Source of the DNA: a bacterium
GTDB lineage: Bacteria > Patescibacteriota > Patescibacteriia > S139-126
Direction of reading: 5' to 3'
Length of the DNA: 54,360 nt
Assembly: GCA_030666865.1 (NCBI GenBank)
Contig: DAOUWZ010000005.1
Span: forward strand, 1 to 54,360
Within the stretch, counting starts at the first letter, position 1, and every line of letters starts with the position of its first letter. Both the position numbers and the translations under genes were made by a program. The notes below the pieces were generated by a model, which was given only the letters and a program-made list of their open reading frames with translations, ran no database searches and was not told the origin of the DNA. This document shows positions 208 through 20,334 of the stretch, piece by piece.

Positions 208-3078
208 ATGCCGAAGGGGAAAACTAAAAAAAAGACAATAAAAAAGGCTGTCTTGAAAAAAGGAACCACAAGTAAGCCAAAAACCAAAAAAGCAGGCTCT
301 TTGAATTCAAGGGGTTGTATTAAGGTTATGAAAAAGAAAACAGCAAAAAAATCTATTACCAAGAAAAAAAGAATTGTAAAAAAATCTGTTATAAAAAATG
401 AAAAAAAGATTGTTCATAAAAAGATCGCTCAAAAAAGAGATAAAATTGTTTTATTCGACGATATAAATGTGGCTACTATTAAGGCTAGACAGGATGAACA
501 TGTTATAGAAAATAGTATTGAGGAAAATGAAAATAATATGGTGATAACAAATGATGTATTAAGTCTAGATCAAGAAAGTCAGTCAAAACAGTTAAATATA
601 AAAATAAGTAATTTAAATACAAAATCTCCTCATTTAGTTGACTTGAAAAAGCGCAGGATTGTTACTTATATAGACCAGGAAAAGGATAGGCCAAAGACTT
701 TAGAAGATAGGTTGGCTAGTTTTGAAGATAAATTTTATAAAACCAAAACAAATTTTATTACTCCTGAGGCAGTTAAATATGCCAGAAAAAATAGACAAAG
801 GAAGACAGGAAAAATAAAGAGAATATTTTTAGTAATAAAAGGAAATATTTCTAATTTTTTTGAAAATCGAATTTCCAAGGTAGGTATTTGGGGAGATGAA
901 TTGGTAACTAATTATTTAGAACAAAAATCTAACAGGGGAACAGAGTCTGACTTATCATCACAAATAATTATAGAACAAGTAAGAAAAAATAAGATTAAGC
1001 GTAAGCACAGTAAATTTTTTTCTTTTCCTCATCCAGTCAGGTGGACATTTAGTAGCGAGTTGAGAGGATCTTTATTTTTGTTTTTAATTTTGGCAATAGT
1101 ATTAGTTTCACCACTTAAGGCATATACTTTTTATGAAAAGGTAAAGAATGAAAAATCGCAAGTTTTAGGAGTATCGTCAACTGTTTATAAAGATTTTTCC
1201 AATGGCGTAGATGCTTTGTCACGATTGAATTTTTCTGAAGCAACAAACAATTTTACTTCTGCTAGTGAAAATTTATTGTCAGTCAGACAAGTTTTAAATG
1301 AATATCCAGCTTTTTTGATGTCGGCAGCTAAAAGTTTGCCTAAGGTAGGAAGCCATGTGTCAGCTGGTGATATTTTAATTGATGTTGGAAATAACATTGC
1401 TAATGCTGGCGCTTTGATGAGTCAGTTATTTGCCGAGGTTTTAACTGAAGATGATAAATTAACAAGCGATAGATTGGTTGAACTTAAAACAGGATTTCAG
1501 GAATTATCAGTTATATTCAAAAATACCAGTAATTTACTGATTAAAATTGATGAGCAGGTGATTCCTGAGGAATATCAGGAAAAAATTAGCTTGTTAAAAC
1601 AATGGATGCCACTATCTAGTAGCATAATTGATAATATAGTGGAAGTTCTTGATATAAGTATTATTTTATTGGGTCATGATCAGCCACAGAGGTATTTGAT
1701 AGTATTTCAAAATTCAAATGAATTAAGGCCGACCGGTGGCTTTATTGGAAGTTTTGCCGAAATTGATGTAGATAAGGCTCAAGTAACAAATATAATCATA
1801 CCAACTGGGGGAATATATGATTTGCAAGGTGATTTAGAGGTTCTGGTAGCCGCTCCAAAGCCACTTCATATGTTGAATGCTAATTGGCAGATTCAAGATT
1901 CAAATTGGTGGTTTGATTTTCCCACTAGTGCTAAAAAAATTCTGTGGTTTTATGAAAAATCTGGCGGACCTACTGTTGATGGTTTAATCGCTGTTAATTC
2001 AAATATTCTTTCCAGTTTAATATCTATTACTGGTCCGATTTATCTTGCCAATTTTGATATAACTCTTGATGAGAATAATATTATAAATGAAATACAAAAA
2101 GAAGTAGAGTTTAATTATGATAAAGAAAATAATGAACCGAAAAAAATAATCTCTGAATTGATGCCAATTATGATAGAAAAACTTCAGAAGTTATCTGGTA
2201 ATCAATTTATGGAAATATTTACGGTCTTTAATTCTGCTTTAACATCAAAGGATATACAGATATATTATCAAAATGATGAGATGCAAAAGAAATTGAAAGA
2301 ATTAGCTTGGACTGGGGATGTAAAATATACCAAGCAGGACTATTTAGCTGTTGTGAATACCAATATTGGCGGAGGCAAGGCTGATAATAAAATTAATCAG
2401 CAAACTCATTTGCAAACTGTTATTAGTGAAGATGGCAGTATTCGGAATAAATTGAAAATCAGGTATGATTATACTGGAGCTTTAGGTGAATTATTTATTG
2501 AACCAGAGTATAATAATTATTTACGAGTTTATGTTCCGCTTGGCAGTAGGATGATTACAACAAACGGATTTTATGTACCGGCTAGTTCAGAGTTTAATAG
2601 TCCGCGAGAAGGATATGAAATTGATGAGTATTTGCACGAAGTAGAAAAATTACCTATAGTTGAGGAAAGTACTAATACCAGGATTACTGAAGAATTTGGT
2701 AAAACTGTTTTTGGAAATTGGGTTAAATTAATTCCCGGTGAGACCAAAGAGGTTTATATAGAGTATGAATTGCCGTTTAAAGTAACTTTCAAAGATACTA
2801 AAGATAAAAATATTATTATTGAATATTTTGATAAGCTTATTGAATATATTGGCATATCATTGCCAGAGGAAAAACAAGTGGCTACTTATACCGCTATGTG
2901 GCAAAAGCAGTCAGGGCAAGTTGCGCCATTTATAACCCATGAATTAAATTATTCCAACAATTGGGATGTAGCTTCTAGTCCGAGTTTATATGATAAAATT
3001 GCCAGGCAAGAAAATAAGGTTTATTATCAGACTGAACTTGATAGAGATATTTTTTGGGGTGTTATTTTGAGTAAATAG
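208..3078 (+). CDS. DUF4012-like membrane protein with long Lys-rich N-terminal tail
   Basis: 956 aa ORF; K-rich tail, TM segment (GSLFLFLILAIVLVSPL), motif NSNELRPTGGFIGSFAEI typical of DUF4012 proteins. Confidence 0.8.
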   Translation: MPKGKTKKKTIKKAVLKKGTTSKPKTKKAGSLNSRGCIKVMKKKTAKKSITKKKRIVKKSVIKNEKKIVHKKIAQKRDKIVLFDDINVATIKARQDEHVIENSIEENENNMVITNDVLSLDQESQSKQLNIKISNLNTKSPHLVDLKKRRIVTYIDQEKDRPKTLEDRLASFEDKFYKTKTNFITPEAVKYARKNRQRKTGKIKRIFLVIKGNISNFFENRISKVGIWGDELVTNYLEQKSNRGTESDLSSQIIIEQVRKNKIKRKHSKFFSFPHPVRWTFSSELRGSLFLFLILAIVLVSPLKAYTFYEKVKNEKSQVLGVSSTVYKDFSNGVDALSRLNFSEATNNFTSASENLLSVRQVLNEYPAFLMSAAKSLPKVGSHVSAGDILIDVGNNIANAGALMSQLFAEVLTEDDKLTSDRLVELKTGFQELSVIFKNTSNLLIKIDEQVIPEEYQEKISLLKQWMPLSSSIIDNIVEVLDISIILLGHDQPQRYLIVFQNSNELRPTGGFIGSFAEIDVDKAQVTNIIIPTGGIYDLQGDLEVLVAAPKPLHMLNANWQIQDSNWWFDFPTSAKKILWFYEKSGGPTVDGLIAVNSNILSSLISITGPIYLANFDITLDENNIINEIQKEVEFNYDKENNEPKKIISELMPIMIEKLQKLSGNQFMEIFTVFNSALTSKDIQIYYQNDEMQKKLKELAWTGDVKYTKQDYLAVVNTNIGGGKADNKINQQTHLQTVISEDGSIRNKLKIRYDYTGALGELFIEPEYNNYLRVYVPLGSRMITTNGFYVPASSEFNSPREGYEIDEYLHEVEKLPIVEESTNTRITEEFGKTVFGNWVKLIPGETKEVYIEYELPFKVTFKDTKDKNIIIEYFDKLIEYIGISLPEEKQVATYTAMWQKQSGQVAPFITHELNYSNNWDVASSPSLYDKIARQENKVYYQTELDRDIFWGVILSK

Positions 3079-3117
3079 ATTTTAGAATCTAGAATAATAA
3101 GAATTTTTATTTAAACC

Positions 3118-3146
3118 GTAGTGACAGAGCACTGCTCTGTCACTAC
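3118..3146. repeat. 29-bp palindrome GTAGTGACAGAGCA-C-TGCTCTGTCACTAC
   Basis: Perfect 14-bp arms; same element at 40482-40510 with a different central base. Confidence 0.9.
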
Positions 3147-3220
3147 ACAATTTATCATAATCAAAAATATAGTAATTATCTAATATTAGCCAAAAAGCTG
3201 ATATTTTTTGATGTCAGGCC

Positions 3221-3248
3221 TTGACAAATTCTATAAAACCTGTATAAT
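3221..3248 (+). promoter_or_regulatory. Sigma70-type promoter TTGACA-16 bp-TATAAT
   Basis: TTGACA 3221-3226, TATAAT 3243-3248; drives the ORF-poor region 3255-4081. Confidence 0.8.
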
Positions 3249-3254
3249 AGATTG

Positions 3255-4081
3255 TTAAACAATTTAACTTTTTGGAGAGAGTTAAAAAGAACAAGCTCCT
3301 CCGGAAAAGGGAGTTTTTTGAAAATATAAATTAGCTGGATTTATTGGAGGGAAAAAGGTGAGTACTAAGGTATGACCCTTTATAAATAATATTATTTAAG
3401 CTTATTATTTGGTGTAAACTAGATATCTGCCTAAATATATTATTTGTTTAATATCCTATTACAGGATCACTTGAACATTTTCCCTCAAATAAATCTAGTT
3501 AATATAAACTTGACGAGGCTGAATGCCTCGCCTATGCGTAATTTTTGAATATCTTATTAATGCGTAGCTGAGGCATTCAGCCTCAGTATAAAGTAAAGGA
3601 TAGAAGAAGATATTGGGGAGAGAGTGACTGAAGAGCTTTAAATAATAATATTGGCTTGTTTCAGCTCGCTCCCAAATACCTTCTTCTATCTCACCTATTA
3701 AATCCTCATTCATGCTAATCTATTGATTGATAAAATTGATACATTAGCTCCTTTCCTTATAGGGCGTTTTCTTAGTAATCTAAGTCAGACGCCTTATAAG
3801 GAGAGGAGAGGATTTACTTAACAAAATTAAGTAAATCATATTTTAAAAATAAAATTTTCAAAAAATACTGATGGCAAATATCCGATAAACAATAATTTTC
3901 AAATAATAGATTAGGAATAATTTGCCCTCAGTAATCTGGGTTTTCAGGCTCGAGGCTAGCCGGTTGCGCTTCAGCATAGCTGTAGCAAAATCTCTCTCCT
4001 CCAGCCGGCCATGCAATTCTAGAGCCTGAAGCCCAGATTACTGAGTAAAAGTAACAAAGTCGCATTGTGCGGCTTTTTTTT
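3255..4081 (+). ncRNA. Candidate large structured ncRNA (~830 nt)
   Basis: Consensus promoter upstream, terminator hairpin + T-run at 4058-4081, no + strand ORF in the track, at least seven long complementary helices (listed in findings). Confidence 0.75.
4058..4081 (+). terminator. Intrinsic terminator agtcgc-attgt-gcggct + T8
   Basis: Hairpin followed by T-run. Confidence 0.8.
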
Positions 4082-4111
4082 GTTTACATAATGTTAAATA
4101 TCTACTGTGTC

Positions 4112-4131
4112 ATTCCTGCGAAGGCAGGAAT
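4112..4131. repeat. attcctgc-gaag-gcaggaat palindromic repeat
   Basis: Inverted repeat; half-copy gcaggaatgac at window start (1-11). Confidence 0.6.
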
Positions 4132-4170
4132 CTAGAAAATAAAAAATAAAAATGAAGAGTAAAATTTTTA

Positions 4171-4194
4171 GGTCGCATTGTGCGACCTTTTTTG
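4171..4194 (+). terminator. Terminator-like hairpin ggtcgcattgtgcgacctttttt
   Basis: Perfect stem + T-run; resembles the hairpin at 4058-4081. Confidence 0.65.
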
Positions 4195-4257
4195 TAATTT
4201 TAAATTTGTATTTTAGTACTTTTTAAAATATCAGAATTATGGTAGAATAATTTTACA

Positions 4258-5856
4258 ATGTTAAAGAAAATTTGGTTCAAATTGAATAATACTGTCACTG
4301 GCGGAGCAATAATAATTGCTTTTTTTTCTGTATTTTCAAAAATAGTCGGGTTATTTCGAGAAAGAATTTTGGCTGCCAATTTTTCTGGTGACAAGATAGA
4401 TGTTTTGGATGCTTATTATGCTGCTTTTAAATTGCCTGATTTGGTATTTAACACTTTAGTGCTTGGGGCGCTGGCTTCCGCTTTTATTCCAGTATTTATA
4501 AAATATTTAAAAAAGAATAAAGAGGAGGCTTTTTTGATCTCCAACTCTATTTTAAATTTGTTACTATTGCTAGTTGGCGGACTGACTATTATTTTTATTT
4601 TTATTGCGCCTTTGGTTATGCATTTAGTAGTACCAGGATTTGATGGAGATAAATTTGATATGACTGTCTCGCTTACTAGGATAATGTTTATATCAATAAT
4701 ATTTTTTACAGTTTCAAATGTTTTTTCCGGGGTACTAAATTCATTTAAAAAGTTTTTAACCTTTTCTTTAGCGCCAATTTTTTATAATTTAGGAATAATA
4801 TTTGGCATCGTATTTTTTACCAAATGGATGGGAGTATCTGGTATTGCTTGGGGTGTGGTACTTGGCGCTTTGCTACATTTACTGATTCAGTTGCCAGAAA
4901 TTTTGAAAACAGGTTGGCGGTATCGGTTACAATTAAACCTTAAACATAAAGGAGTAAGAAAAATTTTAAAATTGATGTTACCGAGAACTTTTGGGTTGGC
5001 AGTAGGGCAGATAAATCAATTAGTAATTGTTATTATAGCCTCTACTTTAGCAGTTGGTAGTGTGGCTTATTTCAACTTAGCTAATAATTTACAGTCTTTT
5101 CCGATTTCAATATTTGGCGTCTCTATAGCTCTGGCTTGTTTTCCGGCGTTTTCGCAGGCTTTTGCGGAAAATGATACTGAAAAGTTTAAACAAAGTTTTA
5201 GTGTAAATTTTCGTCGGATATTATATTTAATTGTGCCATTTTCGATTTTTCTTTTGTTATTAAGAGCGCAAGTAGTTAGGTTGGTTTTAGGTAGTGGTTC
5301 ATTTTCCTGGCACGATACAATTCAGACTGCTCAGACTTTGGGATTTTTTTCTTTATCGTTGTTTGCTCAAAGTTTGATACCGTTGATAGCTAGATCATTT
5401 TATGCTTTGGAAGATACGAAAACCCCGGTAATAATAAGCGTGATGGCAATGATAGTGAATATTGTTGGAGCAATATTGTTGGGGAAATATTTTGGAATAT
5501 TTGGCGTGGCAATTGCATTTTCTATAGCCACTATTATTCAAATGGTATTATTACTTACTATTTTAAGAGGACGGGTGGGCTATCTTGATGATAAAAGATT
5601 AGCTTGGTCGTCAATAAAGATCGGCTGCTTGAGTTTATTGGCTGGATTGGTCGGATATGTAGTTATGCGGATAGTAGCGCCAATGGTTGATATGCAAACA
5701 TTTTTTGGCATTTTGATTCAGACAGTAACAACCGCATTTATTGGCGGTGGAGTTTATATTTTCTTGAGTATTTTATTCAATTTTGAGGAAGTAGAAATAT
5801 TGCAGAAATATTTAGGGAAATATTCTAAAGTGTTAGCAAATAAAAAAAGTAAATAA
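4258..5856 (+). CDS. murJ: Lipid II flippase MurJ (MviN family)
   Basis: 532 aa polytopic protein; FSKIVGLFRERILAANFSG and LVLGALASAFIPVF typical of MurJ. Confidence 0.92.
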   Translation: MLKKIWFKLNNTVTGGAIIIAFFSVFSKIVGLFRERILAANFSGDKIDVLDAYYAAFKLPDLVFNTLVLGALASAFIPVFIKYLKKNKEEAFLISNSILNLLLLLVGGLTIIFIFIAPLVMHLVVPGFDGDKFDMTVSLTRIMFISIIFFTVSNVFSGVLNSFKKFLTFSLAPIFYNLGIIFGIVFFTKWMGVSGIAWGVVLGALLHLLIQLPEILKTGWRYRLQLNLKHKGVRKILKLMLPRTFGLAVGQINQLVIVIIASTLAVGSVAYFNLANNLQSFPISIFGVSIALACFPAFSQAFAENDTEKFKQSFSVNFRRILYLIVPFSIFLLLLRAQVVRLVLGSGSFSWHDTIQTAQTLGFFSLSLFAQSLIPLIARSFYALEDTKTPVIISVMAMIVNIVGAILLGKYFGIFGVAIAFSIATIIQMVLLLTILRGRVGYLDDKRLAWSSIKIGCLSLLAGLVGYVVMRIVAPMVDMQTFFGILIQTVTTAFIGGGVYIFLSILFNFEEVEILQKYLGKYSKVLANKKSK

Positions 5857-20050: not shown

Positions 20051-20334
20051 GACCTGTTGATAACTCTACTTCGCAAGGTCTGTGGTTAAGCTAGAATGGA
20101 CTAAAGGTCGAAATAAGGGTAAAATTACCTTACAAATTGAATATTCTGGTATAACCAGAGTGCCTAAACCTTATTTATAAGGCATGGCGCTGAAATCCAA
20201 CCATGGTAGAGAACTCCTCGTTCAAGTCTTCCATGGTTGGTCGTATTCCGAAAGGAATATGGGTGTCGCAAGATGCCAGACTTGGCGGGGAGCTTTGTGT
20301 ATTCAAAGTCAACCTGTTACCAAGGTTGGTTTTT
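20051..20334 (+). ncRNA. Candidate structured RNA (~285 nt), GNRA-capped hairpins and intrinsic terminator
   Basis: Hairpins at 20146-20158, 20169-20182, 20197-20240, 20244-20259 (GAAA loop), 20262-20277 (GCAA loop), 20293-20308; terminator 20310-20334. Confidence 0.65.

Follow-up and report, generated by a model that had tools for sequence, protein, structure and literature searches.

Does the intergenic region between the DUF4012 and murJ genes of a patescibacterial genome (G000; 1.09 Mb in 55 contigs) contain an RNA gene in its own right? Inspection of the sequence had suggested an unlisted large structured RNA that carries a promoter and a terminator of its own. The present analysis supports this original prediction and adds several features that are missing from it, namely a conserved 3' module of ~125 nt, complementary G strands and a 5' attenuator. 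Coordinates are positions in the window, i.e., the entire stretch of 54,360 nucleotides that was analysed; G000 is the host genome, and other genomes and loci are labelled Gnnn and Lnnn, respectively.

A non-coding RNA gene outside Rfam

The region contains a genuine non-coding RNA gene of Patescibacteria, which is strongly conserved and belongs to a family outside Rfam. The gene is ~830 nt long and is located between DUF4012 (208-3078) and murJ (4258-5856), both assigned with Pfam. The predicted sigma-70 promoter, TTGACA-16-TATAAT (3221-3248, +), was found again as a 12/12 consensus match, the only one within 3080-4260, and the terminator scan places the intrinsic terminator at 4056-4081 (+), two nucleotides upstream of the start originally given (4058-4081). 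No + strand ORF of at least 50 aa exists between DUF4012 and murJ, as had been claimed, which rules out a coding gene; the minus strand contains only ORFs of 72 aa and 52 aa. A near-copy of the terminator is present at 4170-4188. The two near-identical tandem terminators (GTCGCATTGTGCG; 4056-4076 and 4170-4188) ahead of murJ are separated by a dispersed repeat (TCATTCCTGCGAAGGCAGGAATC).

The minimum free energy (MFE) fold of the RNA is -313.1 kcal/mol compared to -183 +/- 7 for 20 shuffled sequences (z = -18.7), and the homologous regions of G001 and G002 similarly fold well below their shuffles (z = -15.7 and -16.3). These homologues represent a second genus, where a DNA search detected the same kind of unit between DUF4012 and murJ (G001), and a third genus, where the unit is found at a non-syntenic locus, at a contig end after a regulator gene (G002); both show compensatory changes and both have TTGACA/TATAAT promoters and terminators. 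An equivalent 12/12 promoter is present in L011, and a TTGACA...TATAAT promoter was seen by eye in L012. In G002, murJ has a divergent gene upstream and no such RNA there, and the location of the RNA away from murJ rules out that it is only a 5' UTR or cis-regulator of that gene.

In a scan of Rfam 15, including the OLE, GOLLD, ROOL, RNase P, tmRNA, SRP and LOOT models, no family reached the gathering threshold for this RNA, and the same holds for homologous RNAs in 20 further loci; the best sub-threshold matches are to short hairpin families, at about half their threshold or less. A known RNA family is ruled out by these scans, and the reported lack of RNase P, tmRNA and SRP signatures is borne out, with those models below threshold. 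None of the outcomes named in advance as refuting the gene materialized: there is no Rfam match, covariation is strong, and relatives carry the RNA both in synteny and away from murJ. In a library of open-access papers, to which the search was limited, no description of such RNAs in Patescibacteria was found. A narrow test for viral origin, a viral_contigs scan with one motif variant of family f49, gave no match.

Architecture of the RNA

The helices originally listed were recovered both as inverted repeats and in the MFE fold; one of them, 3515-3529/3570-3584, proved to be a dispersed repeat rather than part of the conserved RNA. All features of the RNA listed in this section are on the + strand, except for this repeat, which is given without a strand. 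The 5' structured domain (3333-3500) is closed by the helix 3333-3355/3478-3500 and contains a conserved 3' block (GGATCACTTGAACATTTTCCCTC, 3464-3486) that has a similar counterpart in L011 and L053. The palindromic genomic repeat follows at 3514-3584. At least six further copies of this repeat (GAGGCTRAATGCCTCGCCTAYGCG...) are scattered in the host genome (L002-L006, L008). Because of these six further copies and its absence from both G001 and G002, the 3514-3584 helix is considered an insertion. The next hairpin (3599-3690) contains G strand 2 (GGGGAGAGAGT, 3615-3625) paired to GCTCGCTCCC, and the G strand 2 stretch is invariant across all three genomes of family f1. The hairpin at 3748-3810 is conserved in position and carries G strand 3 (GAGGAGAG, 3803-3810) in its 3' arm, and a short helix of 7 pairs, 3873-3879/3920-3926 (feature 3873-3926), leads into the 3' domain; this helix is largely kept in all three sequences (alignment columns 686-692/744-750). 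In the three-sequence alignment of the whole RNA, which is rough outside the 3' domain, 47 of the 139 predicted pairs are doubly changed in one or more of the sequences. The most conserved part of the RNA is the 3' domain, 3923-4048.

The C module and its displayed motif

This domain, hereafter the C module (3923-4048, +; covariance models R1-R3), consists of a long closing stem, an internal loop, an inner helix and an apical hairpin. It is a family of its own that is absent from Rfam, in which an ultraconserved 14-mer, AAAUCUCUCUCCUC, is unpaired between covarying helices. In the window, the displayed single-stranded motif is AAATCTCTCTCCTC (3988-4001, +). The C module scores E 1.2e-27 in its own genome, with the reservation that covariance-model E-values are rough and genome sampling within the class is partial. 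The first model matched a further member within the taxonomic order (G004) and members in distant families (G314, G338 and G052), and these early members all share an unpaired AAAAUCUCUCUCCUC beside the apical hairpin. Of 390 class genomes, 67 contain the pattern AAANCTCTCTCCTC, nearly always as a single copy, compared to ~10 for the reversed control. The final covariance model finds exactly one copy per genome in 58 of 381 class genomes and also matched four sampled genomes outside the class. Nearly all members that lack the exact pattern retain CUCUCUCCU, the variation being outside it. The stems around the motif are unrelated in sequence between loci while the motif is the same, and a second layout, with the hairpin 3' of the motif, is known among the C-module loci.

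Among 21 aligned sequences, all 42 pairs show double changes, and 90.8% of the cells are paired compared to 50.6% in shuffled and ~40% in slid alignments; for 51 sequences, the corresponding values are 88.5% and 48.3% in shuffles. The covariance-model alignment was chosen because MAFFT misaligned the helices of seven divergent cores. Such alignments are fitted to the structure, so the pair counts are inflated, and an independent measure, unconstrained folding, therefore matters. In unconstrained folding of 44 loci, the 14-mer is unpaired with p 0.91 compared to a segment mean of 0.35, and the fold z is -6.65; pattern matches rejected by the covariance model have a fold z of only -1.05.

Genomic context of the C module

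Most lineages encode the C module as a separate small RNA of ~130-170 nt; in family f1, the C module and the G strands are joined in one molecule of 580-830 nt. At least 13 genomes have the module immediately 5' of murJ. In three genomes (G011, G034 and G042), it precedes ftsK, a gene identified by eye from its sequence; in G004, it lies between DUF4012 and lepA; and in G052 and G008, it follows greA. Since the C module persists without murJ, it is best regarded as an independent gene. A role confined to murJ was rejected on the same grounds: the G004 genome, in which murJ gave no match, retains the RNA between DUF4012 and lepA, and in other lineages the RNA is followed by ftsK or preceded by greA or lepA.

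Several loci encode additional elements next to the C module. In G004 (L053), a 122-aa ORF without a known Pfam family separates the structured 5' part from the C module. For cargo ORFs between G and C elements in general, Pfam yields only a weak DUF6116 match. The ~2.2 kb between DUF4012 and murJ in G016 (L205 521-2718, -) have a G strand near the start, a 62-aa ORF and several hairpins ahead of the C module, and a tRNA-like stretch, recognized by eye, that ends in a TTCGACTC-type T arm. In G101 (L266), the C module is preceded, at a distance of several hundred bases, by a sequence that by eye resembles RNase P RNA.

G strands in cis and in other RNAs

Perfect complements of the displayed motif sit upstream in the unit and in other long structured RNAs. 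The G strand GAGGAGAGAG is exactly complementary to CUCUCUCCUC; the window contains GGAGAGAG at 3274 and 3617, and GAGGAGAG at 3803. Complements of at least 8 nt are present within 1.4 kb upstream of the C module in 23 of 55 loci, compared to 1/55 downstream (where flanks are often shorter), 7/55 for the reversed word and 3/55 on the antisense strand. The host genome contains 24 copies of GGAGAGAG versus 7 of the reversed control; in two other genomes, the excess is modest or absent (26 versus 23 and 17 versus 13), and many genomes have no strong G strand near the C module.

Outside the C-module locus, five G strands of G002 lie downstream of a gatB-like gene, in a region that is structured (z = -10.3), and G136, G314, G338 and G004 each have a second G-strand unit before small hypothetical genes (fold z = -6.8 for that of G314). 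Contig C27 of the host (L167 3890-2470, -) carries an ORF-poor structured leader of ~1.4 kb with its own promoter and four G strands. This leader includes a 15-codon ORF behind a GGAGAGAG Shine-Dalgarno (SD) sequence, and the operon that follows contains a ThiF-family gene, along with genes of 370 aa and 246 aa. The fold z of the C27 G-strand RNA is -6.2. In G048, two similar copies of an element (L199 ~1500-1720 and L200 ~1390-1610) contain paired GAGGAGAGAG sites ~206 bp apart.

Because the pairing between the C module and the G strands (C:G pairing) hardly varies, covariation offers no proof of it. Two motif variants that end in CCUU have AAGG instead of GAGG in their upstream complements, but these are weak compensatory cases and the only two seen. 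The pairing itself is inferred from perfect complementarity and distribution, with no binding data.

A predicted termination switch in the 5' leader

G strand 1 (GGAGAGAG, 3274-3281, +), which has the same position in L011, is the putative antiterminator strand of the 5' leader. In the window, it is predicted to pair with the 5' arm of a weak attenuator-type terminator (AAGCTCCTCCGGAAAAGGGAGTTTTTT, 3293-3319, +), so that the two structures would be mutually exclusive; a stricter consensus terminator scan did not pick up 3293-3319. The arrangement in G001 is a textbook one, with GGAGAGAG/CUCUCC set against CUCUCC/GGAGAG + U6. An intrinsic terminator is located within 190 nt after the upstream G strand in 14 of 36 cases and in 0 of 7 controls, and typically a promoter is followed by a hairpin-borne G strand and then by a terminator with CUCUCC or a near variant in the loop or 5' arm.

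Masking of the G strand raises the predicted terminator probability from 0.19 to 0.83 in G000, from 0.11 to 0.99 in G001, and from 0.07 to 0.73 in the second (trans) leader of G338. In nine other leaders (e.g., G265, G368, G373, G075, G136 and G314), the terminator is predicted to be stable or little affected. Since the terminator is stable regardless of the G strand in most leaders, a simple antiterminator switch is not general, and a universal model of this kind is unsupported. For the window RNA and its nearest relative, the switch is well predicted; this does not extend to the family as a whole.

Proposed mechanism and alternatives

The perfect complementarity of the displayed motif to sequences in other RNAs and at the start of its own RNA suggests an RNA-only control circuit. 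We lean toward the view that the region encodes an autonomous regulatory RNA in which the C module base-pairs to G strands and switches attenuators including its own, although both regulation and its direction are inferred, in the absence of transcript, binding or expression data. The C module would offer the same CUCUCC as the terminators, on a separate or 3'-terminal platform, and would compete for the G strands. Pairing on the nascent window RNA, in cis or by another copy, might pull G strand 1 off the 5' arm of the terminator; the freed 3293-3319 terminator would form and transcription would stop, resulting in negative autoregulation through premature termination. In trans, termination or translation of other leaders might be altered through binding of the C module to their G strands; one such leader would be the C27 RNA, upstream of the operon with the ThiF-family gene. 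Only tentatively, and with less confidence than we attach to the autonomous regulatory RNA itself, can this be extended to a lineage-wide RNA-only system, whereby one C-module RNA per genome would recognize the GAGGAGAGAG handle in several long leaders, and in some families in its own molecule, would control termination of fast-changing small genes, and possibly would assemble multi-RNA complexes.

It cannot be dismissed, but seems doubtful, that C:G pairing is purely intramolecular, a long-range pseudoknot of a large structural or scaffolding RNA in the style of OLE, ROOL or GOLLD, without termination control. The co-occurrence of C and G strands in one transcript-like unit (G000, G001, G002, G151, G314 and G338), the minimal version in G052, where GAGGAGAGAG 5' of the C module has a pseudoknot layout, and the strong ornate folding are all compatible with this possibility. 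However, most members are only ~130-170 nt long and keep the motif without a nearby G strand, and G strands are found in separate RNAs too. We also regard as unlikely that the C module is a Yfr1/cuckoo-like sRNA with CUCUCUCC as an anti-SD seed acting on many mRNAs, the attenuators and cis G strands being secondary. The motif is CU-rich, and SD-like GGAGAGAG is found near the starts of a ruvA-like gene and the C27 15-codon ORF in the host and in G145 leaders, but only ~2 of the host's 21 non-self GGAGAGAG sites occupy an SD position, and several clustered G strands have no downstream start codon. A site for a CU-rich RNA-binding protein, with incidental purine-rich complementarity, would fit a near-invariant unpaired motif amid variable helices but is quite improbable given that exact complements are enriched specifically upstream on the same strand and that terminator loops repeat CUCUCC beside the G strands. 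Finally, the absence of any RNA gene, with palindromic repeats and terminators merely clustered in an intergenic region, is virtually excluded: one helix is a dispersed repeat and other dispersed repeats flank the RNA region, but covariation, synteny, the non-syntenic copy, the promoter and motif conservation contradict this explanation.

Relation to known RNAs

For the regulatory RNA proposed here, the best functional analogy appears to be with Yfr1 and Yfr2 of cyanobacteria, which have nearly complementary conserved motifs and interact (PMC6778093). Shared with Yfr1, Yfr2 and Yfr10 are a CU-rich motif that is single-stranded between stem-loops, near-universal presence in one lineage, and complementary partner RNAs. 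In particular, an ultraconserved unpaired motif flanked by stem-loops is found here (p 0.91, 44 loci), and partner RNAs with a complementary motif are represented by cis and trans G strands, in the absence of binding data. In contrast to the Yfr RNAs, sequence, size and lineage are different, C and G can share one 0.6-0.8-kb RNA, and the G strands are in promoter-proximal leaders beside terminators. Membership in the Yfr1 family proper is ruled out: the hosts are patescibacterial and the motif is AAAUCUCUCUCCUC.

In the plasmid pT181 system, the regulator is an antisense RNA to the leader, from the opposite strand of the same plasmid locus. Here a separate chromosomal gene or the 3' terminal part of the RNA itself would act as the regulator, with the direction of regulation only predicted; an antisense relationship to the leader is not met, the C module being on the same strand or at another locus. 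The likeness lies in RNA binding to a nascent leader, proposed to let the terminator hairpin form, as in pT181, where a leader terminator is triggered by the antisense RNA (PMC3753616). Mutually exclusive terminator and antiterminator structures are predicted in G000, G001 and the second leader of G338, but not in most others.

OLE, ROOL and GOLLD are large ornate RNAs that form homo-oligomers (PMC12286853). The general likeness consists of large size, many helices, possible kissing interactions and a standalone RNA gene; the present RNA differs in the lack of an Rfam match, in its chromosomal location by murJ, ftsK or lepA rather than in a prophage, and in its small conserved core. Of the resemblance to these classes that was originally suspected, the size stands and nothing beyond it.

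The covariance model now defines the family and a precise 14-nt motif, the functional role being inferred. The hosts, Patescibacteria, are tiny and form a huge uncultured group, and testable predictions on partners (the G strands) and mechanism (the termination switch) become available for organisms with very few known regulators. The findings further suggest a route by which a small display RNA can expand, through fusion to the RNAs it targets, to an ornate RNA of 0.8 kb, a point relevant to how large bacterial RNAs arose. The window contains another structured RNA at a separate locus: the LOOT model (RF03000), unmatched in 3080-4260, identifies a LOOT RNA at 20161-20277 (+) with 82 bits compared to a gathering score of 46.4.
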